This document shows positions 18,343 through 63,238 of a stretch of DNA of 64,000 bases, piece after piece. This DNA is from Paraescarpia echinospica (Eukaryota; Annelida; Polychaeta; Sabellida; Siboglinidae). Position 1 is the stretch's first letter; each line of letters begins with the position of its first letter. The notes under the pieces were generated by a model. That model made no database searches. It was not told the DNA's origin and was given only the letters and a program-made list of their open reading frames with translations. The stretch covers positions 30,769,750 to 30,833,749 of the forward strand of contig CM034539.1 of the NCBI GenBank assembly GCA_020002185.1. The letters run 5' to 3'. The translations under genes and the position numbers were made by a program.

Positions 18343-18432
18343 ATGTATGTGTTGTACATAGCCGTGTGCCTTTTAGCCATTTTCACTACGTGTCATTCTG
18401 TCAATGAGGCAGAACAAATGACGACTTTGCAG
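18343..18432 (+). CDS. Candidate signal-peptide first exon of the CUB membrane protein
   Basis: ATG at 18343 opens a 30-codon frame: MYVLYIAVCLLAIFTTCHS, then VNEAEQMTTLQ, ending at a good donor (ttgcag/gtattt). This is a textbook secretory signal, and the CUB gene downstream lacks one. The exon ends in phase 0, whereas the CUB exon at 20740 needs one preceding base, so either a small exon is missing between them or this belongs to another transcript. Confidence 0.45.
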
Positions 18433-19019
18433 GTATTTTGTGTTCTGGCTCTGCTCAGCCTCAAAAAGTGAAACTGAAAGGCTCAGTCAGCAATTTGTTT
18501 TTATTAGGTTTTATTGATACGATTACATATGATGGAAAAACATAATAAAATGTGAAACATAAATAATACGATTACAATTAAATTACAATATACTGTATGT
18601 TATATACAAATTATACAAAACATTGTATATAGATATAGTTCATATAAAGTTCTATATCAAAGGTATATCTAGACCTACATATGGCTATATTGTTTATTTT
18701 GATGAATAAAAACAAATCATGTTGTGAAAACATAATTAAAAAATTAATTATATAATATGCCTGCCAATTTAATGAAATACTTATAGCTAATCTTATACCA
18801 TTCATATTTTGTTGTTCGTTGTAGATTGTACAAAACGTGGACACCAGAAATGAAAGTGTACAAGGTTTGATCAAATACCACTGGTACATTTTATTGTTAA
18901 TGGTGGAGCACATATATTCAGAAATTACAATTTCTGTTACATAAACTTACTGTTTCAATAGTATAACTACTGCTCACATGCAGTATTATGTTCATGAGGC
19001 ACTGCGTGCATCCATAACA

Positions 19020-20739: not shown

Positions 20740-23700
20740 AATGTGGAGGTGTTCTAACAGACAACGAAGGATACCTCATCTCTCCACAGTTCCCGACATC
20801 CATCCCTTCCTCATACACTGAGTGCTCATGGGTAATCAGAGGTGCCCTCTATACGATAGTACGCTTCAGGTGGGTAAACACTGGGGGTGTTGATCTTTCT
20901 GTCATTAAAGGTGATTCTCCAAAATGTAGTATCTTTTAAATTTTTAAAAAGTAGTGTAATTTACATTGAATATGATTTGTGAGCTCATTACTGTTTCCTT
21001 GTATTAATTAATCATTACAAGCTTTACACCCACCTATGGAACAACCAGTCAAGAGCAGCAGTTGTTACCAGTACAGTATTTTGAATTTAAATTTGTTGTC
21101 ATGACCAATTAATTTCTGCTTTATTAATGACAGCATTGCAAGTGATGGATAACAATTTTAACATAACTTCTGTGGCACAACCCGGGGAATGACTGACAAC
21201 TCAATTAGTCTACGGAAAAAAGAAAAAAAAAATTAACTTAGTATTTTTTCCAATACTTCCCCAATTGGTAGATCAGTGGCGAATGATTCAAGGATGTACA
21301 TTAACATAGAAAGAGACAAACAGACCTCGGCGCATAAGAAGAAATAGACTTACAATGCACTAATATTAATATATAGATTAGAATTAGTATGATTGATAGT
21401 AAGTAAAAAGATAGTAAGATTACAGACCAATGCATGTCACCTTTGACTGGTACACACCTGTACACACCTGTACACACCTGTACACACCTGTACACACCTG
21501 TACACACCTGTAAGACTGGTGACAGAAATACACAAGACACGCAAACAAACCCCTATGATCATATGTCATAATTTGTTATTCCTAAAATATGACTGTTGTG
21601 CAAACTGGGATATATTTGTGAACTAGCTTGACAAGTTGGGAGAATAGAATTGAATAAATTCTTTCTTCATGAACTTAATTATATGGTTTCACTTTCTCTT
21701 CTGCTTGTCAGAAGGTGTGGCAAGCAACTACATGCCATTTCCAAGCTTTCTCAAGACTCTCATTAAAAATTCCATGCCAAAACTGACTGCTATGGAGCAT
21801 AATAGTTACACAAAATACATTTTAATTAAGTTTAATTATAAAATACCTGTACCAGCTTACACCCACCTATGGAACAAACCAAGAGCAGTTGGTATAAATC
21901 ACCATTACAGTATTTTTATCTTTTAAAATTTGTTCCCACCGTGGCACCCTCTGGAGGTAAGTGGTTCGTCACTCAAAGTTTCCACAGGCGGGGAACTGAA
22001 TGTTATGGCTGTCCGCCATTTTATTTCTTAGAATTACAGGCTTTTCCATGCCATTAAAAAATTCCAAGCTAGCAAGGGCTTGATTTTTAACTAACGCAAT
22101 TTCATGCTATTCAAAGATTTCCATGCCCTGTATGAACCCTGTTGATACCAGTTTTGGTACTTCCCCAGGTTTCTGATCATCAACCTCCCCCCGGCCTCCC
22201 CGGAAACCGGCCAATGCTTGGGTGGTCATGTGACATACGGTCAGTATGACTTCGATGGCAGGCAGGTGATGCAGAACAGGTTTTGCGGCACAGAATTCCC
22301 TGCTATCTTTGTGTCGAACGGACAGCAGGCTTGGCTGACATTTATGTCGACTGGCACAGCCTTGAAGCCAGAGATATACGAAGGCATGAAGGTTCGGTAC
22401 ACAGTGATTGACACAGGTGAGTGTCTTACCTTAAGTTCTTAACTTAAGAATGGTCAGTAATTGTCCATGTATTTGAGCATTGAGGTGGCAGTGAGGCCAT
22501 CTCAAGGCTTTGTTTTCTCTAGTTGTTTTTCTGTGGTGGCCATCAAAATTAGGATTAGTAGATGGTAATATCTGATGTTCATCTTAAAGAACATTTAATT
22601 CAGGAGATTCTCATAAGTATGTTGAAACCACAATAATTTTATTACAACTGATCATGTATATAATGCAATTACATACGCACGCACGCACGCACGCATGCAC
22701 GCACGCACGCACGCATGCACGCACGTACGTACGTATGTATGATTATACAATTATTTAATAATTTGTTTTGTAAACAGTATTTTAAAATTATGATTTTAAG
22801 TAATATTTATCTGTTGTAGATTTCCTCTAAAATCAGTTGATTGTGAGAGTAGTTGAAGGTTTGGTTGTTTCACTGTCTTATTCAGTGGAACCTCAGTTTT
22901 AAAGTCACTCCTGGGACTGGGCAAAAGTGACCTGAATAGCGAGGTGACCTTATTAGCAGGACTAATTTCCTATAGTTTACTGTTATGGAAGTAATTTGGG
23001 ATTGTCCTAGGCTAGGGTGACCTTAATTGCGAGGTGGCTGTATTACAGAGGTGACCATAAAGCAAGGTTGGGCTGTATTGTATTGTATTTGTTTCTTGTC
23101 GATTTCCTCCAAAATCAGTTGATAGTGAAAAAAGTTGGAGGTTTGGTTGTATCGCTGTCTTGTGTTGTATTTGTCGCTTGTTGTAGATTTCCTCCACAAC
23201 CAGTTAATAGTGGGAATAGTTGGAGGTTTGGTTGTATCGCTGTCTTGTGTTGTATTTGTCGCTTGTTGTAGATTTCCTCCACAACCAGTTAATAGTGGGA
23301 ATAGTTGGAGGTTTGGTTGTATCGCTGTCTTGTGTTGTATTTGTCGCTTGTAGATTTCCTCCACAACCAGTTAATAGTGGGAATAGTTGGAGGGCTGGTT
23401 GTATCGCTGTCTTGTGTTGTATTTGTCGCTTGTTGTAGATTTCCTCCACAACCAGTTAATAGTGGGAATAGTTGGAGGGCTTGTTGTATCGCTGTCTTGT
23501 GTTGTATTTGTCGCTTGTTGTAGATTTCCTCCACAACCAGTTAATAGTGGGAATAGTTGGAGGTTTGATTGTATCGCTGTCTTGTGTTGTATTTGTCGCT
23601 TGTTGTAGATTTCCTCCACAACCAGTTAATAGTGGGAATAGTTGGAGGGCTGGTTGTATCGCTGTCTTGTGTTGTATTTGTCGCTTGTAGATTTCCTCCA

Positions 23701-26700
23701 CAACCAGTTAATAGTGGGAATAGTTGGAGGTTTGATTGTATCGCTGTCTTGTGTTGTATTTGTCGCTTGTTGTAGATTTCCTCCACAACCAGTTAATAGT
23801 GGGAATAGTTGGAGGGCTGGTTGTATCGCTGTCTTGTGTTGTATTTGTCGCTTGTTGTAGATTTCCTCCACAACCAGTTAATAGTGGGAATAGTTGGAGG
23901 GCTGGTTGTATCGCTGTCTTGTGTTGTATTTGTCGCTTGTTGTAGATTTCCTCCACAACCAGTTAATAGTGGGAATAGTTGGAGGGCTGGTTGTATCGCT
24001 GTCTTGTGTTGTATTTGTCGCTTGTTGTAGATTTCCTCCACAACCAGTTAATAGTGGGAATAGTTGGAGGTTTGGTTGTATCGCTGTCTTGTGTTGTATT
24101 TGTCGCTTGTTGTAGATTTCCTCCACAACCAGTTAATAGTGGGAATAGTTGGAGGGCTGGTTGTATCGCTGTCTTGTGTTGTATTTGTCGCTTGTTGTAG
24201 ATTTCCTCCACAACCAGTTAATAGTGGGAATAGTTGGAGGGCTGGTTGTATCGCTGTCTTGTGTTGTATTTGTCGCTTGTTGTAGATTTCCTCCACAACC
24301 AGTTAATAGTGGGAATAGTTGGAGGTTTGGTTGTATCGCTGTCTTGTGTTGTATTTGTCGCTTGTAGATTTCCTCAACAACCAGTTAATAGTTGGAATAG
24401 TTGGAGGGCTGGTTATACCGATGTCTTGCATTGTGGCGATGACATACTATGTGTGAGTATATTAAATACTAGTTTCAGAAATATACCCTCAACTATTTCA
24501 GAACAGACATGATCCACTTTAAATTAAATAATCTGTGCATTATTATTGTTGCCATTTACGAATAGATTCATATTAAGGCTTTCGTATCATCAACATTTCA
24601 TTACATTTAATAAAATTAATTCATAAATGTTTTCGGAGATGTTGCCTTCAGTAGTATCATTATGTAATGAACGTTAGTGTCGTGTAACAAATACAGTGTC
24701 ACGTGACAACTACATGTCAATGGGAAGTAAAATCAATTCCCAACTTGATTCTAAAAGCCAAATTTCACAACTTAGGTTTCAAAACGAGATTGTATTATGT
24801 TTTATTTGGTTCTGGAATTTTAAGTATTTTCCATCTTATGATGGACATACATCACAGTTCCAGTTATTTCCATCATATTTGAATACACCTTCGTTTTATG
24901 TGACAAATCTTTAACATTCTTAGGCAGTCGGTACGTTATAATAGATATAGTTTATTCCGTATAACATGATTTTACAATAAAAACAAATGGACGCCCTCCC
25001 TTTAACAGAAGTGACTGTTGTTGACAGGGTGAAGGTCACCCACAGGAAGCGGAGGGAGGAGAGAGCGCAAGAGTACATGAAGCTGCTCAAGTACCGCGCC
25101 AACGATGAGAGGAGGGAGAGGAGGAGATTATCCCAACTCTCCCTCCCTCCCCCCACGGTAGGTCTTCCCCCACCCCTGGGTGGGGCGCAGTGGTGCAGTG
25201 GCTAGAGCTTCAGACTCTCGACCGAGAAAACCCGGGTTCGAATCCTGTGCTGCGGCATCAAACCTTGAGCAATTTCGTTCACGCTACTCTGTATGAATGA
25301 GTACCTGGCTATAGACACTGGTGGATATTTGTGTACGAATAGTCTTTGCACATTATTTGCAGCATGGCTGGATGCCTCCCAGCGAAGTCGAGATGGTGTT
25401 CAATTGAACAGGTCTGCCAGGGAGTAAAGTGTAAAGCGCTTTGAGCAGTCCTGAGGACTGGATACTGCGCTATGTAAGAAATTACCTTTTTTCTCCTGGC
25501 ATGGGAGGACTTCCCCAACTGCTGGTATCAATGTCACACAGTAGTTCTTCTGTCCATGACTGAATTGTGACATTTACATAATACATGTTGAGATGACGGA
25601 ATGGTGACATTTACATAACAAGGTAACTTAATTGTGACATTTGCATTTAATATAGTGACATAAGTGTGACATTTACATCATGAGGTAATGTAATGGTGAC
25701 ATTTACATGAGGTGACTGAATGGTGACATTTACATGAGGTGACTGAATTGTGACATTTACATAATGAGATGACTGAATGGTGACGTTTATATAATGAGGT
25801 GACTGAATGGTGACATTTAGGCTACATGACGTAACTGAATGTTGACATTTACATGAGATGATTGAATGATGACATTTACACAATGAGGTGATTGAGTCGT
25901 GACATTTATATGAGATGACTGAATGGTGACATTTAATAATAATGTGACACGAAGCTGACATTTACATAATGAGGTGACTGAATGATGAAATATATGAGAT
26001 TAGCGAATCGTGGTACTGTCCTAATGTCACCAGTCACTAAATGGTAAGAGTGCTATGGTATGACAACTGAACATCAAGGTTACCCCGGTAGTTGTTGCAG
26101 CACTTGGTGAGACTGGGGAGGTTAGAAGGAGAAAGATTGTATTGTTTGTCTTCCATTGCAGGTTCACCCAGAACAACATAGCAACGACATCAGAATCAAC
26201 AACCAGTGTCCACAAACAAAGGGTCAGGTTTTTATCATTTTTAATTATGCAACTTGGTTTTAGTCTCTCCATATAGTACAGTCGGAAGGTATGCCCCCCA
26301 TGCATCCAGTGGATTTCTAAATGAAACTTACTTTTTTGCAACCCTGAAGGTGTCTAGTAAACAGATTTGGATGTTCACATTTCGAAATAATGTCCGAAGG
26401 GGTCCGTTTGGTGGCCATCTTGGATTTTGTCACGCGCGACTCGTAAAATCAAGGATACCCATAACTTTTGAACCATTCATCGTACAAAGACAAATGAACC
26501 CACTTTTTCGTATAACTGTGGCATGAGGAATCGCTTGAGATGGTTATTTTGACGATTCAAACATATTTATTTCTTCAAAATGCCCATAATACCATATTTT
26601 CATGCCTGAAATCGAGTCAAATACTAAGTTAAGGATAGGTAAATGCGCATAAGCACTGATTCAACATTATATGCCACTACTAGGCAGAAAATGGAATAAT

Positions 26701-29700
26701 TATGAGTCCAAGAAGAAAGGAAACTACACAAAATCTACCCACTACGATCAGTATCTACGTTTGCTCACTGATTTTGTGAACCTCGAGTCGGTTCTTGAGT
26801 CGGTTCTTGAGTTTCTCTCGCTCCTATAGTCAGACTTTGGGCAGCCATTTTGCTCCAGTTCCTTGACGTAGAGGAGCTGCAGGAAGGAGAGCTGCACCAC
26901 CTCAATCTGCTCAATCACATGATCACCAATAAATTATACCACATATCTGAATGCCTGCTGATGTGCAGCAGTCTTGTGACCCTGTTCTGTGTCAAGATTG
27001 CAGGTCTCAGTCCGCGTCTGTGCACGAACATGATTAAGGTACTTCACCGAGTACTGCTGTGTCATCCAGGAGCAACTGAGACGGTCTGCAGAAGCTACCT
27101 CCGAGGTCGGACAGAAGTACGTCCTTAACACGTTAGATCTCGGTGGGTGCATGTAGGCCCTTCTCCTCAGATGGAAATTTCTAGAGAAGTACAAGTCACA
27201 TGTAGTCACCCCAGGGCAGTTCCACATTGTGATTAATTACATGGGTATGGTAACTGGGCACAAGTTCAGGGGCTCGGACTACGCTGAGATTATCCTCGAG
27301 GCTGGCCTCGTCACCAGCGGCTGTCTGAACAGTGTCCTCAGTGGGAAGGCTTATGCTAAGGCATTAGTTTGTCTGAAGACTGTCTGTGAGGCGATGGAGC
27401 GGCTACTGATGGAGAAGTTTGAACAGGAGGAAAACGTCCATGTAGACAACAAAGTGGCCCTCCTCAACCTGGTCAAGTCCTGCAGCCGAGAGAACCTCGA
27501 CCTCGTTCTCCAGGACTCCCCAACTCTCACCATCGTCAACAAGTACGTGGAGCTTCATTGAACACACCCGCCTCATCCTCATCTATTCTGTGAAGACCAA
27601 CAACCTCAAGCTCTACCTCATCTATTCTGTGAAGACCAACAACCTCAAGCTCTACCTCATCTATTCTGTGAAGACCAACAACCTCAAGCTCTACCTCATC
27701 TATTCTGTGAAGACCAACAACCTCAAGCTCTACCTCATCTATTCTGTGAAGACCAACAACCTCAAGCTCTACCTCATCTATTCTGTGAAGACCAACAACC
27801 TCAAGCTCTACCTCATCTATTCTGTGAAGACCAACAACCTCAAGCTCTACCTCATCTATTCTGTGAAGACCAACAACCTCAAGCTCTACCTCATCTATTC
27901 TGTGAAGACCAACAACCTCAAGCTCTACCACATCTATTCTGTGAAGACCAACAACCTCAAGCTCTACCTCATCTATTCTGTGAAGACCAACAACCTCAAG
28001 CTCTACCTCATCTATTCTGTGAAGACCAACAACCTCAAGCTCTACCTCATCTATTCTGTGAAGACCAACAACCTCAAGCTCTACTACATCTATTCTGTGA
28101 AGACCAACAACCTCAAGCTCTACCTCATCTATTCTGTGAAGACCAACAACCTCAAGCTCCTCACCAACATCGACCTGTCTCACCTTGGTGCGAAGGAGCT
28201 TCTTGAGAAGGGCGGCATCGCACGGTCATTCATTCCCGGTGCACTCGGCGCAGTCGACAAAACCATGGAGGAGACATTCATGAAGTTCGCCAAGTCGGCA
28301 GGAGGTCTAGTATGGCTGTTCTCAATGTCTGCTGCTCATCAGCATTGGTGCCGCACCACATCCGCTCATGCCTAATAGTTTGAGAGGATGCCCGAGATGT
28401 GTGGACTCAGCAATGACCCCGAGTGTCCAAAGGCAGGGAAGCATCGCGAGCGTGAGGCTGCTGAGATCAAGAAGATCGAGGAAGCTGTGCAGCAAACACT
28501 CACTGCTATCCAGAACTTCATCGACCCCTTCGCCATCCCTGACTAAGACCGACTCTACAACGTCGCATCCGGTGTTCCTGTTTCACCGGAGGTCGAGATC
28601 GATGTCCTTCGAACTGACACAGTTGGTAAGGAAGCCAAGAAGGGCTTCATCAGTGATCGTTTCCAGAATAGGTAATCTGAGGAAACCTTCTTTGCAAGCT
28701 CACCTCCACACAGGGAAAGCGCATCCAGTACCGTGAGCAGAGCAACCTGGCCTTTATGCTTCTTATCAAGTCGCAGCTCCTGGATGAGCCTCTCGACCTT
28801 GATGAACTGATGCGGTACTCCCTCACCCCTGTTCCTCCCAACCTCGGCACCCCCGATGGATTCTTCGCCAAAACGAACAAGGCCTCCATGCTACACTTCT
28901 TGCTAAATGACACCCCGAGGAGGTGCCCTACCCAAAAGACGCGATCCATATCCAGGATGGCATGGCTCTCTGACACATGCTCACCAATCTGCCCCATATG
29001 AACGGTGACATTTGCCTCCAGGTGCTGGACCAGATGGGTGCCAAAAAGAACTTTGTGTTCTCCACAGACCTCTATCATGCAGACTCTATCAAGGCAGATG
29101 AGAGATTGCGCCGTGGCTTCTCACAGAAGTACATCATCGATGGCCCGGCCACCAGGAAGCCTTCAAGCTGTTCTTGGCCAATGAAGAAAACAAGCGACAG
29201 CTCTGTCACCTGCTGCTCCGGGTCTGGAGCAGCAAGGCGGCGCCCTCGCGACTCGAGAAGTGCGGGGCAGCGGTTGCCATCATGGAGGGGAAGGCACATC
29301 AGCTGTACTCATCCAATGGTGAAGTGACTACGCCCGAGATCGATGAGTTGTCCTCAGACCAGGAGGAGACGGATACCCGGGTCGTTCTCTACCGCCAATA
29401 TGCCGCCAAGCAAGAGTACAAGTCGGCTGTAGTGAGAATTCCTGATACTGACATATTCTTCATCCTGCTCCACCACTCGCACTCCATCAGCCTCACCATC
29501 TATCTCGACACCGGCATGGGCAAGCACCTCCAGATAGGCAACGTGACGGAGGTGGCCAAGTCACTGGAGCACGCTGGTCGGGTTCTACGGGTTCTCAGGC
29601 GAGGACTGCACCAGCGCCTTCAGGGGCAAAGGCAAGATGGCGCCCCTGAAGAAGCTCCAGAAGAACCCCAAGTATCACAATATTTTAAAGAAACTTGGTG

Positions 29701-32700
29701 ATGACTGGACGGTGAAGCCGGAAGTGATGGCAGATTTGGAGGCCTTCGCCTGCCTCATGTACGGTCAGACTCGCGAGACATCAGTGGATGCTGTGCGAGG
29801 CAAGATGCTCATAAAGATGGTGGGAGAAAACGAGAAGCTCACCACCAAGTCCAAGGTTGACCTGGCTCTCCTCCCACCCTGCTAATTCTCCATGTTGGCC
29901 GGGTCAACTACCGACTAGCCAAGTACAAGCGGGCCAACCAGCCTCGCTTCTGGCGACCCAAGCACTACGGTGATGGACAAGGATGGGTGAAGACTGAGGA
30001 GGGTGTACTGGAGCCAATGTGGTTGTGTGGACCCTTCTTGCGTCCCCCACTCATTGACTTGCTTGAGAAAGCTGCTGAGGAGGAGGAGGGAAAAGAGGAA
30101 GATGATCAGCAGATTGACTATGATGAGCTGCTTCTTGGCAACAATGATGATTAGTGTGTAGTGTCGAGGGTAAGTTTCGGGTAGATAGTTCTTGAGTAGA
30201 CGTAGGTAGCGGGTAGATTTCGTGTAGTTTCCTTTCTTCTTGGACTCATAATTAGCCTATTTTCTGCCTAGTAGTGGCATATAATGTTGAATCAGTGCTT
30301 ATGCGCAATTACCTATCCTTAACTTAGTATTTGACTCGATTTCAGGCATGAAACTATGGTATTATGTGCATTTTAAAGAAATAAATATCTTTGATTCGTG
30401 AAAATAACCATTTCAAGCGATTGCTCATGCCACAGTTATACGAAAAAGTGGGTTTATTTGTCTTTGTTCGATGAATGGTTCAAAAGTTATGGGTATCCTT
30501 GATTTTACGAGTCGCGCGTGACAAAATCCAAGATGGCCACCAAACGGACCCCTTCGGACATTATTTCGAAATGTGAACATCCAAATCTGTTTACTAGACA
30601 CCTTCAGGGTTGCAAAAAAGTAAGTTTCATTTAGAAATCCACTGGGTGCATGGGGGGCATACCTTCCGACTATACTAATATGGGTAGCTAAACATTCAAG
30701 ATACATACTGTTGCAATGAACTCCGTGATTACATAACAAAATCAACTAATACTTCTAACAAGTGGAATCAGAACTAAAAACTACATTGTACTTAATACAC
30801 GTACCTACAAAATACATGTTAGAACACCTAAGTGGTGTCACTGTATTTCCCAGTACCTATGATATGATAATCATCCATGAATTAAGACAACTTTTCCTTA
30901 GTTCTTGTTCCTCCTGTATCAATACACACTTTCGTGAAATATCATATTGTTTAAATGGAATTTCTGAAAATGTTATAAGTTCAGGTGTATTTAAAATATA
31001 TTCTACTCTAAAGAAACTCCTAGGTCTCTCTCCAGATATATTGGATCAATCGCTCGGGCTTCATCAGCAAACTAACCTTGCTTTGGCTGTGAGGAAAACA
31101 GAAGTGAAGCATCCGTAGATTAAAACCCCCTTTAAATTGGGACATAAGTCGAGAGCCTCACAATCCTTGAGTTTGTGTCACATGACCTCCCAGAGATTCG
31201 GCCAAAATATGCAAAGAGAGAATTAAGTTTCTTTAGAAAAAAAATCAGAAATATTTTGTCGATGACTTGGTAGTCTTGTTGGCGAGTGTGGCAGTAAAGA
31301 TAATAGCTACAAGAGATGCACCAAGATGCAGATGCACTAAGAAGCACTATGCACCAAGTGATGCACTATGCTGCATAGCGAACTTTTTATTTACAGTAGA
31401 GGCTGCGACTAAACCAGAAAGTGAAACCGCGGAAGAGGAAGACGACCCAAACAACAACAAGATTGGCTTCAGCGTAGGTTTAAACCCCTGCTTTTTACAA
31501 CACAACCTTCTTGCTACTTTCTGGAGAACATATTGCTTTTATTATGTGAAAACCATATTCTAGCACGTCTGTAAAACTGTGACTGTGAGTAATATTTTAA
31601 CATGTTTCCATATCACATTTTTATGTTAATTAATTTGATGTAAACTCCGGAGTAACTGCAGAAGGAATCTGACTGTCTTTGATGTCTAAAAAAACAAAGT
31701 TCACTGTTTGATTCACTGATACAAAATGTACTTTGCATCAGTTCATTTAGCTGTATATATGTGAACAAAGTCTTTATGCAGTAATTACACTATGGCTGAA
31801 TGCTTTCCATAAAAGAATAGATGGTGATCGAATGAATAGGTCTGCCAGGGGTGAAGAATAAAGCGCTTTGAGCAGTCCCAAAGACTGGGTACTACGCTAT
31901 ATAAGAACTTACATTTCTTACAAAACCTAACATGATAACCATATTATCAAAATAACTGTAATCAAACATTACATTTTGTAGGCACTGTGTGTGTTGGCAT
32001 ATTGTAATATTTATTGTAAAATGTTGTATTTGTATGACCAGTAAAAATATTGGGTGAGGGTGATCCATTCATAATTATCACACTTTTGTGTCCCTTTCCC
32101 AACACTGTTGCTTATTTTAGTGTTTAAATGTTGCATATAGTGTTTGTTCTCGTTTCTCTGTCTGTCGGGTGAGGCTGGTCTCGATACTGATCCTTGATTT
32201 CTGTCTTCTTTCTGTTTTTATTCCCCTCACTCATCTTGCACTGCTGTCTCCATTCCCCTCTACCTTTCACTCTTCTTCACTCCTCTCCCAGTCCTTCCAA
32301 ATCTCTCTTTACACAGTCCTCCCATCGCAGTCTAAGTTGCCCCCACCTTGTAATATTGGAATATGTAGTCTTGGTTGTTGTTGGAAATAACTTACTATTT
32401 TTTTCTAAGAGAAGTCTTTCAATTTGCTCCATGGTTTTGTTTCTTTACGCAGACATTTCTCCGCAACATCATCGACAGCCAATCAACAGTGGCGTCTCAG
32501 GATGCAACAGAAGTGGGCGACAACACAGCACACTGGTCATCCACGGTGCACACATCCGCCAGCCAAGACCGATGGTCGTTCCCAGATAGCAGTACAGGTA
32601 GTGACTACACCGTTGTTCCGTCCACCGCACAAAGTGGACACAGTGACCCGGTTTTCTACTTGACCCCCGACAGTCAAAGATTTGACCTGACCCCCAAATC

Positions 32701-38200: not shown

Positions 38201-41200
38201 AAAATGTTGGTTTGACAATGTCAAGGAGTGGATGGCCCTCTCCATGCCAGAGCTCCTCATCATAGCCACGGACAGACAAGAATGGCAAAACATCACAGCT
38301 GCAGCGTCACTTATGCCCCCCCGATGACCAAGATAGAAAAGTAACAATTTCCCTTTCTGTCATTGATAATTTCCGTACAAATGCTATCAATAGAAAGCTG
38401 AATGATTCTTCTTTCTTTTTCATTTCTATTCAAGAGAAGATTTGACGTGAGTTAATGGGAATTAGGCTAATCAGGCTAATCTGTTTTTTCAATAATTATT
38501 AGTGATGTTACAAATTGTTTACAGCACCAGTAGGATTTGGAAAATATGAACACATTACAACCTCCTATTAAGGTCACCCTCGGAACTGGGCAAGTGACCT
38601 GAATAGCCAGGTGATTGTAGCGCGGGACTAATTTTATATACTCTACTGTTACAGAAATAATTTGTGACTGTCCTAGGGTGACCTTAATTGCAAGGCGGCT
38701 GGATTACCGAGGTGACCATTAAGCAGGGTTTCAAATTGTGAACACTGGGAGTCTATACCATAGGTTACTTGGGTTACAGGTTACGCCCCTTACCTGCAAA
38801 TGTCATGTGTTCAGGATCCAGGTCGTTGACATCAATATTTGTGAGGAACTGTTTCACAGACTCCTCAAACTGCAAAACAAAACTAAGCTGCAGACATCTT
38901 ATAGTTTGACCAAGATCGACTTGGACTGCACACTGACAAACTTGAACAAACGCACTCTCACAAAATGATACTTTTGCAAAGAGTGTGCTACAATATACTG
39001 TATGTATTGCTGCACTGTGTCATTTGGAACCTTAAAGTACATTTTGGCATAGTAGAGTTATGGGTATGTTAAATGACAGCATTTCATCTTTGAATTCAGT
39101 TTTAAGAAATTCAGTTTTAAAGTTTTTCATAAGTTTAACAACAATCAAATAAATCAAGCAAATGCTCCAAAAGAACTTTTTAAAGATATTAATTACAAAC
39201 TATAGCAATCAATGTAAGTTAACTGTAATTCTGGAAATACTTTAACACGTTTGTTACTTCTTCTCCAATCAACAAAGCATACCTTAGTCCAAAAATGGTT
39301 ATAACAAAAAGAGGGATTTTAATCAACTTTTTAATCATGTGCGTAACATTTGATTTAATAAATATGTTATTATAATGTAGCATTGTATGATTTGTATCCA
39401 CTCCCTAGGACGTTTTATACAATTCACTCTCACATAGGCCAGATCATTTCCAAAGTCATCCCAACAACAAATCAAATTCTCTGGCAAATATTCATTCAGT
39501 TCGTAATTACTATACACAATTACTATACAGAAATCTCGCAAATTTCTAAACTAAATATGTTAATCTTGACACTCACATACTTGAAATCAATCTCAAAATA
39601 ATTCTTCAGATGTACTGCAAGTTTTGTGGATAGAGAACTCACAGAAATTTGTTTTCTTGGGGTGTGACCAGAGGGCATTTGTTGGGCCCCGGGGGGCAGA
39701 GAGTAACGAGGGACCTTGGCGGCCGCTGCCAGAACGAGGCGGGCGTTTCTCGACATGTCTCGTCCCTGTGGTGGGCCGTTCTCAGTCGAGGCATCGATCT
39801 TTTCCAATCTCGCCTGTAGACCTGCCATCTTTCTCTTACTGAAGTCAGAGAAATGAATTTATTTTGATACGTCGTAGCTCTATTAAAATAGAATCAGGAG
39901 TTTATGCAAATAATAAAAATACAATACATCATTGTGCTGTTAGAAAAATTTACATTACATATATATATGACGCGCCATATAGCGGTTAATTGTGAAAACA
40001 ATGTTTGAACCTCACATTTTCATGTTTCGGATCAAATGAGTGGGGAAACGAAGCTTTTAAAAACATTTAAAGTCAAGGATTGTGACAGATGGGGATGACT
40101 CATTAAAAAGGCAGACCTGATCATGTGACCTGACCTGCAAGGGAGCATGGAGGAAGAAGAACATATGTGACTCACCACAGTGAACCGGGTATTAAGTGAC
40201 ACAGGCCTATTCTGCACACGAACCAAAAATAGCTGTCAAGGTCATGTCCCATAAATTATGTGATTTTAGAAGAAATGAATACCTTATAAAAGCGTCCTTC
40301 AATGTCTAGTTTATTTTCCTCGACAAGTCATCCAAAACGAATAAAATACATGCATTTATAGACCCATATATTAAAAAAACAATATCAGTCAAAGCTTCAC
40401 CAGACATGTAAACCTCAAGGCAAGAGAAAAAGAGGCCGGCTGAAGAACACTTGGTGAAGGGACCTCCAGGCAGACGGGCTATCCCTGGAAACAGCTGGAG
40501 AGAAGCGGCCAGGAGAGAGGAAGTTCGTGAAGTTTGCTAAAATTGTAGCAATAAATTAAAAAACTCTGAAGATATTTCAATAAATGAGGTGTCATTTTAA
40601 AGCTTGTGATCTGTGAAATACAAAATGGCACAAAACTACATTTCCATTTTGTGATTTAATACCCACTTTGCTGGCTGGTCCGACTCGACTGTACGACTCT
40701 CCTTACCTGGTCGGTGTACTAGCGAGTAAGCGATTCTGTATCTCCGAGACTGCAGGGGTCATCGATACCGTATTTGGTGATGTCTTCAGATGTGACGTAT
40801 TCGTGTCCTGCAATGATCAAACTCTTCGGTGAAACACACTACGAGAATTCCGTTACAAATTTTATTTGCGGAAATCTACACTAGACGTTAATTCACTCAC
40901 AAAATGAGAATCAGTATATAAGAAGATTAAAAATAAAACTAATAGTATTCATTGGTTATGTTAAAAGTAAGGGATCATCTCAGAACGACGATGTCTGATT
41001 GATATCAGATGAAATTACTCAACCCTTTCTAAAATCAGAAAGGAATAGTAAAAAGCAGTACAGGAGAAATTTCCACAAAGGAAAATATAAGGACATAAGG
41101 AAATATTTAGCAAAGATAGACTGGAATAACACACTGAAGAATAAGACAGCAACAGAATGATGGAATATCTTAAAGAGTGAAATTGAATGCATCATCGTCA

Positions 41201-44200
41201 AATTTGTTCCCTTAAAAAAACACGGGAAACGGTCCAAAAAGAAACACTTATCAAAAGAAGCCATTATAAAAATTAAGTATAAAGAAATGATGTGGAAGTC
41301 ATATAGACGTACTGGAAATGACGAAGACTACAACATTTATAAAGAAGCACTAAACCAAGCTAAAGCTGAAATTAGAAATTCAAAGAGAAGCTATGAACAT
41401 AAATTAGCTTCTAATATAAAACATGACAGCAAGTTTTTATGCATATATTCGAAGCAAACAGAAAGTTCAGGATAAGGTCGGTCCTCTAGAAGATATTGCT
41501 GGAAATGTAATATCAGAAGGATTCTTAATGACAGAAGACCTTAATGAGTATTTTAGTTCAGTGTTTACCAGAGAAGACACTAGTTCACTGCCAGTACCAG
41601 AGGCTAAGTTCAAGGGGGCAGAATCAGACTATTTAAGACAGTTAATTGTAACCCCAGAAATGGTAGCTAAAAAAATCAGGGCTATGAAGGATAATAAATC
41701 ACCTGGAGTGGATGGTATTCCACCCACACTACTATTGGAAATTGTAGAACAAATTAGCATACCGCTTGCAACAGTTTTTAACTTGTCATTAGAAGAGGGA
41801 GTGGTTCCTTTAGAATGGAAAGAAGCAAACATTATACCGTTATTCAAAAAAGGTTCGAGAAACAAGTCAAATAATTATAGACCAGTTAGTTTAACATCGG
41901 TGATTTGTAAATTATTAGAAAGACTAATTAAAGATCACATGGTGGATTTTCTTGTTAAACATAACTTGATAAACCCATCTCAACATGGGTTTCTAAAAGC
42001 GAGGTCATGCTTAACAAATATGTTATGTTTTTTGGAAGATATCACTAAGTGGGTAGATGATGGATCACCAGTAGATATCATCTACTTAGATTTTCAAAAA
42101 GCTTTCGACAAAGTGCCACATCAGAGATTACTGCTTAAACTAAAGGCCCATGGCATAGGAAATGGTATAATTAACTGGATAGAAAAATGGCTGATTGACA
42201 GAAGACAGCGGGTAGTTGTTGATGGGGAGGCTTCAAACTGGAAATCAGTTTTGAGTGGGGTTCCACAGGGATCAGTACTGGGACCTATATTATTCTTAAT
42301 ATATATAAACGATTTGGACGATGATATAGCTAGCAAGGTGTTGAAATTTGCAGATGATACAAAAGTGTTTAGAAGGATTAAAAGTGATGGAGATAGACAG
42401 CATTTACAGGATGATCTTGACAGGTTGATCAAATGGTCTGAAAAGTGGCAAATGTTGTTCAATTTTGGGAAATGTAAATGTCTTCACACAGGACATGGGA
42501 ACGAATATGTAGAATATACAATGGGGGAACTGTACTAAATACTACTGTAAAAGAAAAAGACTTAGGGCTGACAATTAGTGCTGACATGAAGGTTTCAGAG
42601 CAGTGTGGAATTGCAGCTTCAAAAGGAAATCAAATCCTTGGATTGATTAGGTGAAATATAGCATATAAAGAAAAAGAACTAATAATACCGCTGTACAAAA
42701 CAATAGTTAGGCCTCATTTAGAATATTGTATACAAGCATGGAGGCCATACCGCAAGAAGGACATAGATATGCTAGAAAGAGTACAGAGGAGAGCGACTAA
42801 AATGATACCAAAACTGAGGGATCTTAGTTATGAAAAACGCCTAAAAGAATGTGGTTTAACAACACTAGAGACCAGGAGATTGAGAGGAGATCAGATAGAA
42901 GTGTTTAAAATATTGAATGGTTATGAAAATATTGATAGAAATATGTTTTTTTCAGTTAAGAAAGATAGAAAGATTAGAGGACACGAAGTTACATTAGTAA
43001 AGGAACAGTGTAGATTAGACGTAAGAAAGTTTTCATTTTCACAAAGGACTGTGAATGTATGGAACAGATTATCTGATGATTGTGTGGGTGCTAGTAGTGT
43101 GAATGTTTAAAAATAAAATCGACACATACCTCAGAAGGGCTGGATATATGTAGATAAAAGGGTTGGACTCTCGATAAGCCAAAGGGCTTCCTTGTCCACC
43201 TGCCATCTAGAGTTAATTCTCTGGATGGCAATCTTGTTAAATCTAAAAAAACCCACCCCCTCCTCAGACGAAAGTTTGTAAACAATGTTATGATGATATC
43301 AATATATTAACAGTATCGATTGGAAACATAAAATATTTTTGTCTGATGCCAGACAAAACTGCCTCTTACCCCCTCCACCAAACAAAAATAATCTGTCTGA
43401 TATTGGTCATCGACTTTCTGAGATGATCCCTGAAATCTTGTCTTGATATAAATGTAAATAAAAAGTAATAGGTCTGCCGACATGTGATGGATAGGTCAAT
43501 TGCTGACCTTCATGGGTAGCTCATGGTCAGTGTTACTGGACATCACATCAGAGGGGTCACTGGACCATATCTGCAGCATCGATACACCAAACTGGACGTC
43601 TTTTCTGAACGGTTGACAACAGGTGATCTTGAGACGGTCCCAAGCTTCATCCCTGGCTTCCGTTGAGAAGTCCCCTGAAGTGTATAACAAAAGTATTAAT
43701 AATATGATTTTCATGTATTTAATTTATTATTTTTATAACCTGGGGACCGTTTCACTATAAGCTCATAAGTCTGATTTTGGTGTTTAAAAGTCATCTTATA
43801 TATATTAAAAACTCTTACACCAGGATGCGCCACTGGGACACTTGCTGGTGTGTCACAGAAATAGTGTCATTGGTGACATGGCAGCAGCTTTTTGCAGTTT
43901 TAATACACTAGATAAATTTACAACAGATTCTGTTTAATGATGGATTTTCCTGATGAGGTAATTATCTTAGTGAAACAGTCCCCTGGTGCGATACCAGAAA
44001 CCCAACGCTAACTAAAATCAGCAAACGTTTTTTACAGTACACTGCGATACTGAATTGATTATTATTTATAACATCTTGTATGATACCGGAAACCCTACCC
44101 AATGAGAGTAAATGTTTACGGAGCATTGTTATGCTGAATTTATTACTATTTATAACACTTTGTGTGATGCCGGAAAAACATCCCTTAGAGAGGAAACACA

Positions 44201-49204: not shown

Positions 49205-50635
49205 AAGTGCGAAAGACAAATTTTCGTGATGAGGAGAGACATGGAGGTGGCAGAGGTTGTGGAGGAGGACACAATGGACAGGGCGTTCTGGTGAGGAGAG
49301 ACATGGAGGTGACAGAGGTTGTGGAGGAGGACACAATGGACAGGGCGTTGTGGCGAGGAGAGACATGGAGGTGACAGAGGTTGTGGAGGAGGATGCATTG
49401 GACAGTGTCATGGTGAGGAGAGACATGGAGGTGACAGAGGTTGTGGAGTAGTACGCAATGGACAGGTTGTTGTGGTGAGGAGAGACATGGAGGGGGCAGA
49501 GGTTGTGGAGGAGGATGCAATGGACAGGGTGTTGTGGTGAGGAGAGACATGGAGATGACAGAGGTTGTGGAGGAGGATGCAATGGACAGGGCATTCTGGT
49601 GAGGAGAGACATGGAGGTGACAGAGGTTGTGGAGTAGTACGCAATGGACAGGGTGTTGTGGTGAGGAGAGATATGGAGGTGACAGAGGTTGTGGAGGAGG
49701 ACACAATGGACAGGGCATTGTGGTGAGGAGAGACATGGAGGTGACAGAGGTTGTGGAGGAGGATGCAATGGACAGGTGTCGTGGTGAGGAGAGACATGGA
49801 GGTGACAGAGGTTGTGGAGGAGGATGCAATGGACAGAGCATTCTGGTGAGGAGAGACATGGAGGTGACAGAGGTTGTGGAGTAGTACACAATGGACAGGG
49901 TGTTGTGGTGAGGAGAGATATGGAGGTGACAGAGGTTGTGGAGGAGGACACAATGGACAGGGTGTTGTGGTGAGGAGAGATATGGAGGTGACAGAGGTTG
50001 TGGAGGACGCAATGGACAGGGCATCGTTGTGAAGAGAGACATGGAGGTGACAAGAGGTTATGGAGGAGGATGCAAAGGACAGGGTGTTGTGGTGAGGAGA
50101 GACATGGAGGTAACAGAGGTTTTGGTCGAGGATGCAAAGGACAGGGTGTTGTGGTAAGGAGATACATGGAGATGACAGAGGTTGTGGAGTAGTATGCAAA
50201 GGACAGGGCATTCTGGTAAGGAGAGACATGGAGGTGACAGAGGTTGTGGAGTAGTATGCAATGGACAGGGTCTTGTGGTAAGGAGACATGGAGGTGGCAA
50301 GAGGTTGTGGAGGAGGATGCAATGGACAGGGTGCTGTGGTAAGGAGAGACATGGAGGTGACACAGGTTGTGGAGGGGGCTGCAATGGACAGGGCATTGTG
50401 GTAAGGAGAGACATGGAGGTGACAGAGGTTGTGGAGTAGTATGCAATGGACAGGGTCTTGTGGTAAGGAGACATGGAGGTGGCAAGAGGTTGTGGAGGAG
50501 GATGCAATGGACAGGGTGCTGTGGTAAGGAGAGACATGGAGGTGACACAGGTTGTGGAGGGGGCTGCAATGGACAGGGCATTGTGGTAAGGAGACATGGA
50601 GGTGACAGAGGATGTGGAAGAGGATGCAAAGTGGT
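49205..50635. repeat. 61/62-bp minisatellite, about 23 copies
   Basis: Unit made of gagacatggaggtgacagag, gttgtggaggaggatgcaat, ggacagggcgttgtggtgag, gag. Higher-order structure is present: about 50,200-50,340 is repeated almost exactly at 50,390-50,530. Long open frames on both strands are by-products. Confidence 0.95.
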
Positions 50636-60500: not shown

Positions 60501-63238
60501 CACTTTACTCTCTGGCAGACCTGTTCAATCGAACACCATCTCGACTTCACTGGGAAGCATTCAGCCATGCTGCAATTAATGCACAAAGACTATTCGTACA
60601 CAAATATCCACCACCGTCTATAGCCAGGTACTCATTCAGTGAACTGAAGCAATGTAGAGTAAACAAACTTGCCCAAGGTTCGACACCGCAAGCACAGGAT
60701 TCGAACCCGCGTTTTCTCAGTCGAGAGCCTGGTGCTCTTACCACTGCGTTACTGCACTTACTAGGTCTGTAGAAAATCTGTCTTTGTTACAATATTATGT
60801 TACAACTGTAAACTACTTGTAATAATTCAGGTTGTTGTAATACATACAAATGATTACTGTGATGTCCATAGTTTAACCATATTTGGGTAGAGGTTCATCA
60901 GACTGGATGGTTCAAATGAGTGATATTTTTACTTATTTTTATTTCACGGTCAGTTTACCTTTTTTCGTGACGCTTTGTTTCGGTTACTTTCTCAGACGCA
61001 ACCGAAACGTCATGGGAAAACGGTAAACTGACTGTGAACTAAGTAAAAAATATCACTCATTCGATTACTGCGAGTGTCAAACTTACCCTAGCATTGACCT
61101 CAATGTCAAAGCTGGCCTTCTTCATCTGGTACTCGCGTGAAGAATCTGCTATGCTTGTGTCGGCGTGGTACTTTGCATCCATGCGAGCCTGCTCGCACTC
61201 CGCCTCCTAGCAACACATCACCATGGTTACCAGAACTGCATGGCAACAAACGTCTATTTTTAAAATATATATCTTATTTTGCATAGTGTGTAACGTGTAA
61301 TCTAGATCAAGTCAGAGACACTGCCAGAGCACATGCATGCACATACGCTCACACACAACACCCTCACACATCACACGTGTACATGCATGTATGCATACAC
61401 TACACTATATAATATTAATTATGTCGGCAATTGTACAAACACGTTTCAACCCCTAAACATGCTGGCAACAAATTTTTTTATTAGTCATCGTACATGGCCA
61501 ACATATGTTGAGAAATACTGTTGACAATATTTGGGGGAAGATGTTGGCCATTTGTGCCTGACTTAAAGATAAAAAGATAAGTTATTATACAGCGTAGTAT
61601 CCAGTGTTTTATTCTTTACTCCCTGGCAGACCTGCTCAAACAACATCTCGACTTCTCTGGGAAGCATCCAGCCACGCTGCAATTAATGCGTGAAGACTAT
61701 TCGTATGCAAATATCCACCACTGCCTACAGCCAGGTACTCATTCATATAGCTGACTGAACTGGAGCATCGTAGAGTGAACAAACTTGCCCAAAGTTTGAC
61801 ACGGCAGCACAGCATTTTAACCTGGATTCTCTCAATTGAGACTCCCGACACTCTAGTCACCACGTACCCTGATTCCGGCATCTCTGTTGGCTTCGACCAC
61901 CCCTACGTCTGCATCTCTCTTCACGTTCGCCGTCTGTGTACGACCAAGAGAAGCAAGGTACTCAACGTTGTCATAGACGTCCTTGATAGTAAAACTGAGG
62001 ATTTCAATACCCATACGACCAACATCGGGTGACGCCATTTCCCGCACGAGTGTTGCAAACTGGTCTCGGTCTTGGTAGATGGCTTCAACACTGAGAGTAC
62101 CTGGCAACGACATAACCACATAACATCATACGATGCTCACCCATTCAACTAGGAGTAGTAATAGTCAAACCTCCTGTTACGGTCAGCTTGGTAACACAGC
62201 CACCTCGTAATTAAGAGAACCACAGGATAGTTCTAAATCATTTCTATATCAGCAATGTATAGCATGTTTTATTATTAGTCTGACTAATATGGTCACCTTG
62301 CTATTAGAGTCACTTTGGCTCAGTCCTACAGGTGACCATAATTGTGAGGTTCCGTTGCAATTTTCTCAGGATTTTTGAAGACCTATATGAAAAATCCAAA
62401 CTTACAGAAGTTGGTTTTTTCGATTCAATTCAATGCTTTATTTCAGACACAATATTACAGTGATACATATATCGGTCCATACACCCCTACCACTGTTAAA
62501 GTGATAGTAAAAGCACATTATATAATACATAAGGTATACATATACAAGAACAAAATATATATATGTAAAAGAAAAAATAAGAAAATATGAAAACACATCT
62601 ACACAGTACCACTGGCATTGCTCCTACAGAAGGTCGTTGTGTACATACAGGGACTTAACCCATCGCCTTCTAATCCTGGAGATCCACCTGATATCCGTGC
62701 CTAGTATGGCTACTATCAGAGAGTTTTCTGATTTGTCTAAACGATTCATAAATTTTAAAATCGCAGGCCAGTCTAGCTTGTGGAGTAGACAATATCAGAC
62801 ACTCTGTAAGTTCTTGTGTTTTCTAACAGACTTTTGTGTTACAGGATATAGGATGGATTTATCAAGATTATGAAGATAGCTGCCAGCAGCCAGAATGCCA
62901 CAAGATATACAAGGTACACTGAATGTGAAAAAAGTAAAAATATAACTAATCGTTATGAACCAGCCAGTCTGACGAAGTCTTTATTCATACTAGAAACAAT
63001 AGATAACTAGATAAAAAACGTACCGAGGATTGCCCGTAGATGTCCTTCCAGGGTCTGCAGGATGACAGCCTTGATATACTGCACATCTTTGCCGAGGAAC
63101 TGTTCACAGGCCAGAGCAAGGATGTCCGGAGAGGTCATGATCTTGACCTGAGCAACCCCAGTCACGGTGACTGGTACCCCCTCCGAAGTCTCGACATTCT
63201 CACACACTGGGTTTAGAGTCATCAACTCCAGTGAGATC
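54543..63238 (-). CDS. FLOT2: Flotillin-2, N-terminal exon(s) outside window
   Basis: Scaffold of membrane microdomains on the cytoplasmic face of plasma membrane and endosomes. Exons 63238-63024, 62100-61868, 61206-61087, 59735-59521, 56058-55875, 55486-55343 and 54575-54543 give 380 codons and a stop with phases matching throughout. Residues follow vertebrate FLOT2 closely: ISLELMTLNPVCENVETSEG, VTGVAQVKIM, ACEQFLGKDVQYIK, QTLEGHLRAILGT, IYQDRDQFATLVREM, DVGRMGIEILSFTIKDVYD (SPFH domain), then the Glu-Ala heptads of the flotillin domain (VKRPAEAEAFRVQLLAEG, VEVARAEAEKIKLIGASDAS) and LPPAVQALTGIDLSK. Vertebrate FLOT2 is about 428 residues, so about 48 residues, including the acylated Gly-Cys start, lie right of the window or were not found in 63,240-64,000. 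The C-terminus (VLSKIPGAQA) differs from the vertebrate tail. Confidence 0.95.
56113..56395. repeat. About 26-bp minisatellite in FLOT2 intron
   Basis: About 11 copies of ccagatggcctggttggtca plus taaac/taac, beginning about 55 bp upstream (in gene sense) of the exon starting at 56058. A block of several units is itself duplicated. Confidence 0.92.
56400..59480. other. FLOT2 intron, 3 kb, no confident feature
   Basis: AT-rich intron. Words such as cagtcccgtaacacctttgt and gtgttgcagtactgacac recur between 57,090 and 59,200 and may mark a decayed transposon. No protein or RNA gene recognised. Confidence 0.4.
59800..60115 (+). repeat. tRNA-derived SINE-B, full-looking copy
   Basis: Head gtgcaatggtgcagttgtta and cgcttgagttcaaaacccgg (A/B-box-like), body gtctcaatttgggatgtaaa and ggcttggcgataatgttctg, tail cataacattgtaaccac. 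Related to 19,020-19,275. Confidence 0.7.
60178..60385 (-). repeat. SINE-A, reverse, partial
   Basis: tgctcaaagcgctttacatt through atccagccacgctgcaatta to an altered head near ggattcaaacccgagtg. Confidence 0.7.
60441..60757 (-). repeat. SINE-A, reverse, nearly full length
   Basis: Starts aaaggtaagttcttatatag and ends at the head, with ggattcgaacccgcgttttc as the reverse B box, in a FLOT2 intron. Confidence 0.85.
61566..61860 (-). repeat. SINE-A, reverse, touching a FLOT2 splice donor
   Basis: gataagttattatacagcgt (tail) through atccagccacgctgcaatta to the head (actctagtcaccac). The head ends within about ten bases of the donor at 61867. Confidence 0.8.
62168..62362. repeat. Hairpin-type element (family D), copy 4
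   Basis: aacctcctgttacggtcagc, gccacctcgtaattaag, atggtcaccttgctattaga and ggtgaccataattgtgaggt show the inverted-arm layout of the family. Confidence 0.7.
62400..63000. other. FLOT2 intron with possible retroelement remnant
   Basis: Starts with attcaattcaatgctttatt, a LINE-tail-like word. The minus strand of 62,640-62,880 has an open stretch (FMNRLDKSENSLIVAILGTD) that I could not assign. Confidence 0.35.

Follow-up and report, generated by a model that had tools for sequence, protein, structure and literature searches.

A mirage-like tandem array of acceptor-carrying units upstream of the membrane-span exon of a predicted CUB gene

Introduction

Tandem repeats that run across intron-exon boundaries have been described in lancelets under the name of mirages; the cases treated in the relevant passages are the globins BflGb6 and BflGb9, Adh3 and troponin C, with PGBD5 as a similar case (PMC3087553, PMC3902484). 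As described there, the BflGb6 unit consists of the 3' end of an intron and the 5' part of exon 2 and includes the acceptor, its core is homogenised with the cluster edges excluded, and reverse transcription PCR suggests regular splicing (PMC3087553). The passages on the Adh and troponin C mirages report no aberrant mRNAs, and the PGBD5 repeats were judged not to disturb accurate splicing (PMC3902484). Variable array length, or instability in somatic cells, is a further trait of mirages. Here we describe an array of this form in a 64,000-nucleotide stretch of contig CM034539.1 (positions 30,769,750 to 30,833,749 of the forward strand; hereafter the window, whose own coordinates are used throughout), in which 16 repeat units lie upstream of an 85-nt exon (24368-24452) coding for the hydrophobic span of a predicted CUB-domain protein. 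The initial annotation of the locus knew of no described case of this layout, a view that the lancelet mirages contradict, since BflGb6 has the same unit make-up. The array looks like a further, longer example of a known curiosity.

Related arrangements are known from other genes. The variable number tandem repeat (VNTR) in intron 18 of ABCA7 starts with the exon's donor, and retention of one unit shifts the frame (PMC5954066, passages on the repeat). Like this VNTR, the array described here abuts an exon and includes its splice signal, but the ABCA7 unit is 25 bp long and carries a donor, whereas an acceptor is carried here. The IFI6 (6-16) minisatellite contains multiple splice donors (Turri 1995, as cited in passages of PMC2572611 and PMC4526556); in both IFI6 and our locus the repeat units provide competing splice sites, although IFI6 multiplies donors, not acceptors. 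A donor-multiplying VNTR does not describe the present array, whose unit includes neither the donor nor the exon's last 19 nt. In humans, internal tandem repeats located at exon-intron boundaries form novel introns or lengthen exons within segmental duplications, according to parts of PMC2812944, and they resemble our case in that expansion of a boundary minisatellite alters gene structure. Intron gain via tandem duplication of proto-splice sites, that is, of an AG/GY motif within coding exons (PMC2891723, in the passages concerned), likewise involves partial exon duplication with splice signals; unlike it, the present array multiplies an existing acceptor, and its core units have no strong new donor. 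Among the titles and abstracts listed in our searches of openly licensed papers we found no acceptor array this long, nor any at a membrane-span exon.

Results

Structure of the array

Tandem Repeats Finder (TRF) called the repeat at 23072-24428 with a period of 85, 16.1 copies and 95% matches. The array upstream of the exon consists of unit A, unit B and 14 core units, 11 of which are 85 bp and 3 of which are 82 bp long when cut between AG and ATTTCCTC (Table 1). The unit of the IFI6 repeat is reportedly shorter. TRF and unit cutting both bear out the tandem array of 82- and 85-bp units leading into the 85-nt exon that had been noted initially, with the difference that 16 rather than 15 units lie upstream. 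AG before ATTTCCTC occurs at 16 places, once at the exon itself and 15 times upstream of it. The initial annotation also stated that every unit carries the AG and an intact hydrophobic frame, which is true of the 14 core units; unit A, at the left edge, has the AG but meets a stop at codon 4 and is split by an insertion, its tail picking up again before 23101 (by eye), and unit B has TCG instead of the AG and, although its exon-like frame is open, two lysines within the span. As in the mirages, a minisatellite-like head-to-tail array includes an intron-exon boundary; in the number and size of its units (16, mostly of 82 or 85 bp) it differs from BflGb6, for which two haplotypes, with 3 and 6 units of 150-160 bp, are given (PMC3087553).

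The 14 core units are nearly identical. Because 78 of the 85 aligned columns are invariant across them, a chance origin of the array is excluded. Variation among them amounts to two bases that change together, two single bases and one 3-nt indel, and these four variable bases and one indel are too few for a judgement on selection on the units. Units A and B at the edge, and the exon, have diverged from the homogeneous core, a pattern of concerted core and diverged edges that is shared with BflGb6. At unit columns 41-42 the linked pair is GC in 8 core units, as in the exon, and TT in 6, as in A and B; the TT-type core units gain a weak GAG/GT donor. The two types are interleaved without period, which suggests that exchange may have occurred between array and exon. 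A higher-order repeat, proposed by a TRF period of 337 bp, was rejected: at none of the lags 1-7 did the order of unit types match itself more often than expected (all P > 0.4). Seven positions distinguish the exon from the core. Unit B agrees with the core at 7/7 of them and unit A at 5/6 readable ones, position 9 being unlike both, and the change may have lain either in the exon or in the ancestor of the array.

The same interleaving bears on whether the array is real. Tandem arrays are prone to misassembly, and the draft-genome version of BflGb6 was apparently misassembled according to a passage of PMC3087553, so a small true copy number might have been multiplied during assembly; yet the locus lies within a 63.9-Mb contig (C9), the unit variants are interleaved without period, and no second copy of the gene was found in the 3111 contigs of the genome. 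We regard an assembly artefact as very improbable. Genome searches with the exon DNA and with the protein, in which the best candidates were scored, placed array and gene at this locus only. These searches bear on a possible exonised dispersed satellite, a repeat present elsewhere from which the exon would derive.

The unit and the exon

Counted from the AG, the exon and a core unit are identical at 59 of the first 66 positions and then at 6 of 19, the latter being the chance level (shuffle mean 5.3, P 0.45). Unit-like sequence was found neither in 24434-24634 (P 0.84) nor in 22600-22804 (P 0.34). Since the match between exon and unit ends after 66 nt and there is no unit-like flank, the unit consists of about 19 nt of intron end, which are a pyrimidine tract and the AG, followed by 66 nt of exon. 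The initial annotation had seen the whole exon as amplified, and this has to be abandoned. We take it for a coincidence that 19 and 66 nt sum to the exon's own length of 85 nt. In its composition, an intron end plus an exon part with the splice signal, the unit is like that of BflGb6, with an AG before A and before each of the 14 core units and its loss before B.

The hydrophobic frame that runs through the units is in part a by-product of the pyrimidine tract being read as codons. When the 19-nt tract was shuffled, a stop arose in just 18% of cases and the mean best hydropathy was otherwise 2.45; the best hydropathy of the actual unit, 2.75, was matched or beaten by 11% of the open shuffles.

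Splice sites

Splice sites were scored with human-type position weights. On this scale all 16 acceptors reach 7.2-7.9 and rank in the top 4% of the AGs in the window, which bears out the earlier proposal of some 16 acceptors competing for one donor. The exon's donor, at 24453, reaches 5.0, which places it in the top 6.4% of GTs in the window, and no donor of a core unit scores above 3.3. Depending on the acceptor, the upstream intron would be 403-1951 nt long; the downstream intron has 575 nt.

These scores bear on the idea that the units act as cassette exons, used alternatively to vary the membrane span, as in a tandem exon cluster. The first-unit frame is intact in 14 units, the weak GAG/GT donors of the six TT-type core units (3.0-3.3) would yield 39-nt in-frame pieces, and the gene's own weakest modelled donor, that of exon 2, reaches just 3.9. 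The core donors nevertheless fall short of the 5.0 at 24453, each unit extends from one AG to the next without an intervening intron, and near-identical copies would add little diversity. The copies in a mutually exclusive tandem exon cluster each have their own acceptor and donor, which the core units do not, and we give this explanation very little credence.

Products of upstream acceptors

Frame reading met a premature stop after each of the 15 upstream acceptors, for that of unit A at codon 4 and for 13 others inside the array. It had been proposed that use of an upstream acceptor shifts the frame and soon meets a stop; the stop is met in 15/15 cases, whereas the added length is divisible by three for 5/15, and the frame shift is thus not general. 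For 14/15 acceptors, that of unit A included, the stop lies at least 85 nt before the exon end, and for the acceptor at 24286 it falls in the next exon, 49 nt before the end of that exon. Stops that precede the last junction by more than about 50-55 nt tend to trigger nonsense-mediated decay. A complete membrane span is encoded ahead of the stop for 14/15 upstream acceptors, a point absent from the initial annotation, and any stable product would accordingly be anchored with an altered tail. This is a difference from the lancelet cases: the exon here is a membrane span, and 14/15 upstream acceptors open an anchored frame.

The initial annotation had suggested that the array might buffer, regulate or burden splicing. 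Such outcomes of upstream use would suit a regulatory array, in which part of the splicing goes through upstream acceptors and the length of the array determines how much of the RNA is destroyed by nonsense-mediated decay or yields an anchored protein with another tail. The near-equal scores of the 15 upstream AGs, the position of the stops and the span kept in nearly all products are in line with it, and in ABCA7 the VNTR length tracks exon 19 skipping and, inversely, expression (PMC5954066, in the portion concerned). We nonetheless consider it unlikely: splicing is reportedly undisturbed by the lancelet mirages in the passages cited above, variation in the core is so low that selection is indistinguishable from recent homogenisation, unit A contains a stop and unit B is without the AG.

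Gene model and encoded protein

The array belongs to a gene modelled on the plus strand, with exon phases checked for consistency (Table 1). The six exons modelled from 18343 through 25157 close in phase. The predicted product has a signal-like start (by eye), a single CUB domain (Pfam, E 8.1e-10), a hydrophobic span and a basic cytoplasmic start. A search of PDB matched 12 distinct sequences, for example cubilin, all over the CUB part. The span encoded by the 85-nt exon has a mean hydropathy of 2.47 over 19 residues and is followed by a basic stretch, in keeping with the original view that this exon encodes the CUB protein's only membrane span.

The phase closure and the hydropathy speak against the notion that 24368-24452 is not an exon and that the gene model or membrane span has to be sought in another place. 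This notion draws on a donor at 24453 that is middling and not the top GT of the stretch, and on the homologue search with the gene product, in which none of 340 candidates reached E <= 0.001; we hold it to be highly unlikely. The genome protein search (1.08 Gb, 3111 contigs; 37/37 candidates scored) gave no close paralogue, its lone other match being a weak CUB-like one on contig C5. No RNA families at the gathering threshold and no tRNAs (ARAGORN) were found in the window. A search for the egg-lysin family gave no match, nor did its controls, and this negative carries no weight. A kinase search meant to supply other exon edges for comparison listed 135 matches.

Table 1. Coordinates of array units, exons and the insertion at the CUB locus (window positions)
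Feature	Position	Strand	Basis
Exon 1, signal-peptide-like start (by eye)	18343..18432	+	phase-consistent model
Exon 2, 40 nt, phase 0 to 1, weak donor (3.9)	18825..18864	+	phase-consistent model
CUB exon 1	20740..20869	+	Pfam match, phase-consistent model
CUB exon 2, strong donor CAG/GTGAGT at 22417 (12.4)	22169..22416	+	Pfam match, phase-consistent model
Unit A, left edge of array	22820..22881	+	unit alignment
MITE-like insertion, inverted ends, within unit A, ends approximate	22880..23078	+	copies in window and genome
Unit B	23102..23186	+	unit alignment, site scores
14 core units, AG before each, exon-like hydrophobic frame	23187..24367	+	unit cutting, frame reading
Transmembrane exon, 85 nt, phase 1 to 2, donor TGT/GTGAGT at 24453 (5.0)	24368..24452	+	unit alignment, site scores, hydropathy
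Cytoplasmic exon, basic start, donor ACG/GTAGGT	25028..25157	+	gene model, site scores
Possible additional coding exon, tentative	26162..26222	+	by eye

Insertion and neighbouring repeats

The insertion that splits unit A, about 200 bp long, resembles a miniature inverted-repeat transposable element (MITE). Three more copies are present in the window, at 38559-38730, 645-797 and 62177-62353, and 41 matches including itself are listed in the genome, the best 40 of 5220 candidates having been scored. Just 3' of the cytoplasmic exon, at 25184-25480, lies a sequence with a tRNA-like head that by eye is like a short interspersed nuclear element, in which ARAGORN called no tRNA. At 26274-30677, within the 3' part of the CUB gene or past it, an element resembling a large DNA transposon is inserted. 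Its inverted repeats, 472 nt long and 96% complementary, enclose 3.46 kb of broken coding-like frames, two of which were tested and gave no Pfam match. Inside this element a 39-bp unit is repeated 14.9 times at 98% with an open frame kept (27577-28159). Elsewhere in the window, a 62-bp minisatellite of 22.8 copies (49226-50629) has long minus-strand open frames (521 amino acids from stop to stop), by chance or as coding sequence, and a reverse-transcriptase frame (RVT_1, E 1.4e-34) at 41420-42535 is a retroelement remnant.

Discussion

The array is probably a mostly silent minisatellite of the mirage type that lies over an intron-exon boundary, with the last acceptor favoured by exon definition. 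It would have started with a tandem duplication of the last ~19 nt of the intron and the first ~66 nt of the transmembrane exon, and then have expanded, presumably by unequal exchange, with homogenisation leaving 14 near-identical core units. At the left edge, A and B would have diverged and the MITE-like insertion would have been gained, while the exon at the right edge would have retained its donor and its own final 19 nt. Splicing most likely removes the array from the transcript as intron, mostly via the acceptor nearest the exon donor (24367). We expect this acceptor to be favoured because the flanking introns exceed 250 nt for any acceptor and exon definition prefers the sites closest across the exon. 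According to PMC9225289, exon definition takes over above an intron limit of about 250 nt, and the analysis of 5' sites also shows that smaller exons are preferred. Occasional use of an upstream AG would give a longer exon with, in 14/15 cases, an alternative membrane span and an early stop, and the RNA would be a likely target of nonsense-mediated decay.

The repeat content of the genome fits this picture. In 20 samples of 10 kb at fixed positions on contigs C1-C11, we counted 15 arrays with a period of at least 20 and at least 8 copies, which cover 11.8 kb or ~5.9% of the bases, and five arrays of this kind are present inside the window. In such a repeat-dense genome, we judge that a minisatellite may be expected to catch an exon edge now and then. 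We judge the array to be long and well preserved, and probably near-neutral.

Several observations weigh against a silent minisatellite with a favoured last acceptor. In the human data of PMC9225289, the preference for the upstream one of alternative 3' sites is reduced, not reversed, in the long-intron class, so the last acceptor may not dominate. The weights behind our site scores are of the human type. The exon donor is middling: GTs of the insertion at 22944 and 23051 score 5.8 and a GT of unit A at 22843 scores 5.0. The original statement that the last unit alone has a correctly phased GT donor is to be qualified in that the exon donor, which outscores those of the core units, is equalled or bettered by these sites. 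The tie to the lancelet mirages is one of form alone. The left flank speaks for the proposed origin, with a reservation: the stretch of 30 nt ahead of unit A is similar to the intronic part of the unit, aligning with a score of 20 against a mean of 9.6 in shuffles (P 0.003), but two of five control introns of the gene score 16 (18825) and 15 (26163, where the boundary was set one base beyond the AG and the acceptor accordingly scores just -4.6), and the remaining three 4-6. This resemblance may partly reflect a general likeness of acceptors, and the flank test is suggestive only.

A more far-reaching reading is a length-tunable acceptor array, which appears quite doubtful to us. Splicing would choose among 16 near-equal acceptors, and array length, varying between individuals by unequal exchange, would set the ratio of full-tailed product to tail-altered or decayed product. 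With the membrane span completed by the translated pyrimidine tract, nearly every choice of acceptor would then yield an anchored CUB protein, and the normal cytoplasmic tail would come from the last acceptor only.

The array offers a clean natural experiment on 3' splice-site choice, in which 16 near-equal acceptors face one exon donor and are spaced mostly in steps of 82-85 nt after one larger first step. The position rule, by which the preferred site is the nearest one either over the intron or over the exon, could be read from cDNA of such an array, the length of which may vary naturally. The acceptor-side cases described so far, in the literature cited here, are those of lancelets. Should the present genome belong to a different phylum, minisatellites at exon boundaries may be a general feature of genomes rich in repeats, as a load that is tolerated and perhaps as a source from which introns and exons newly arise.

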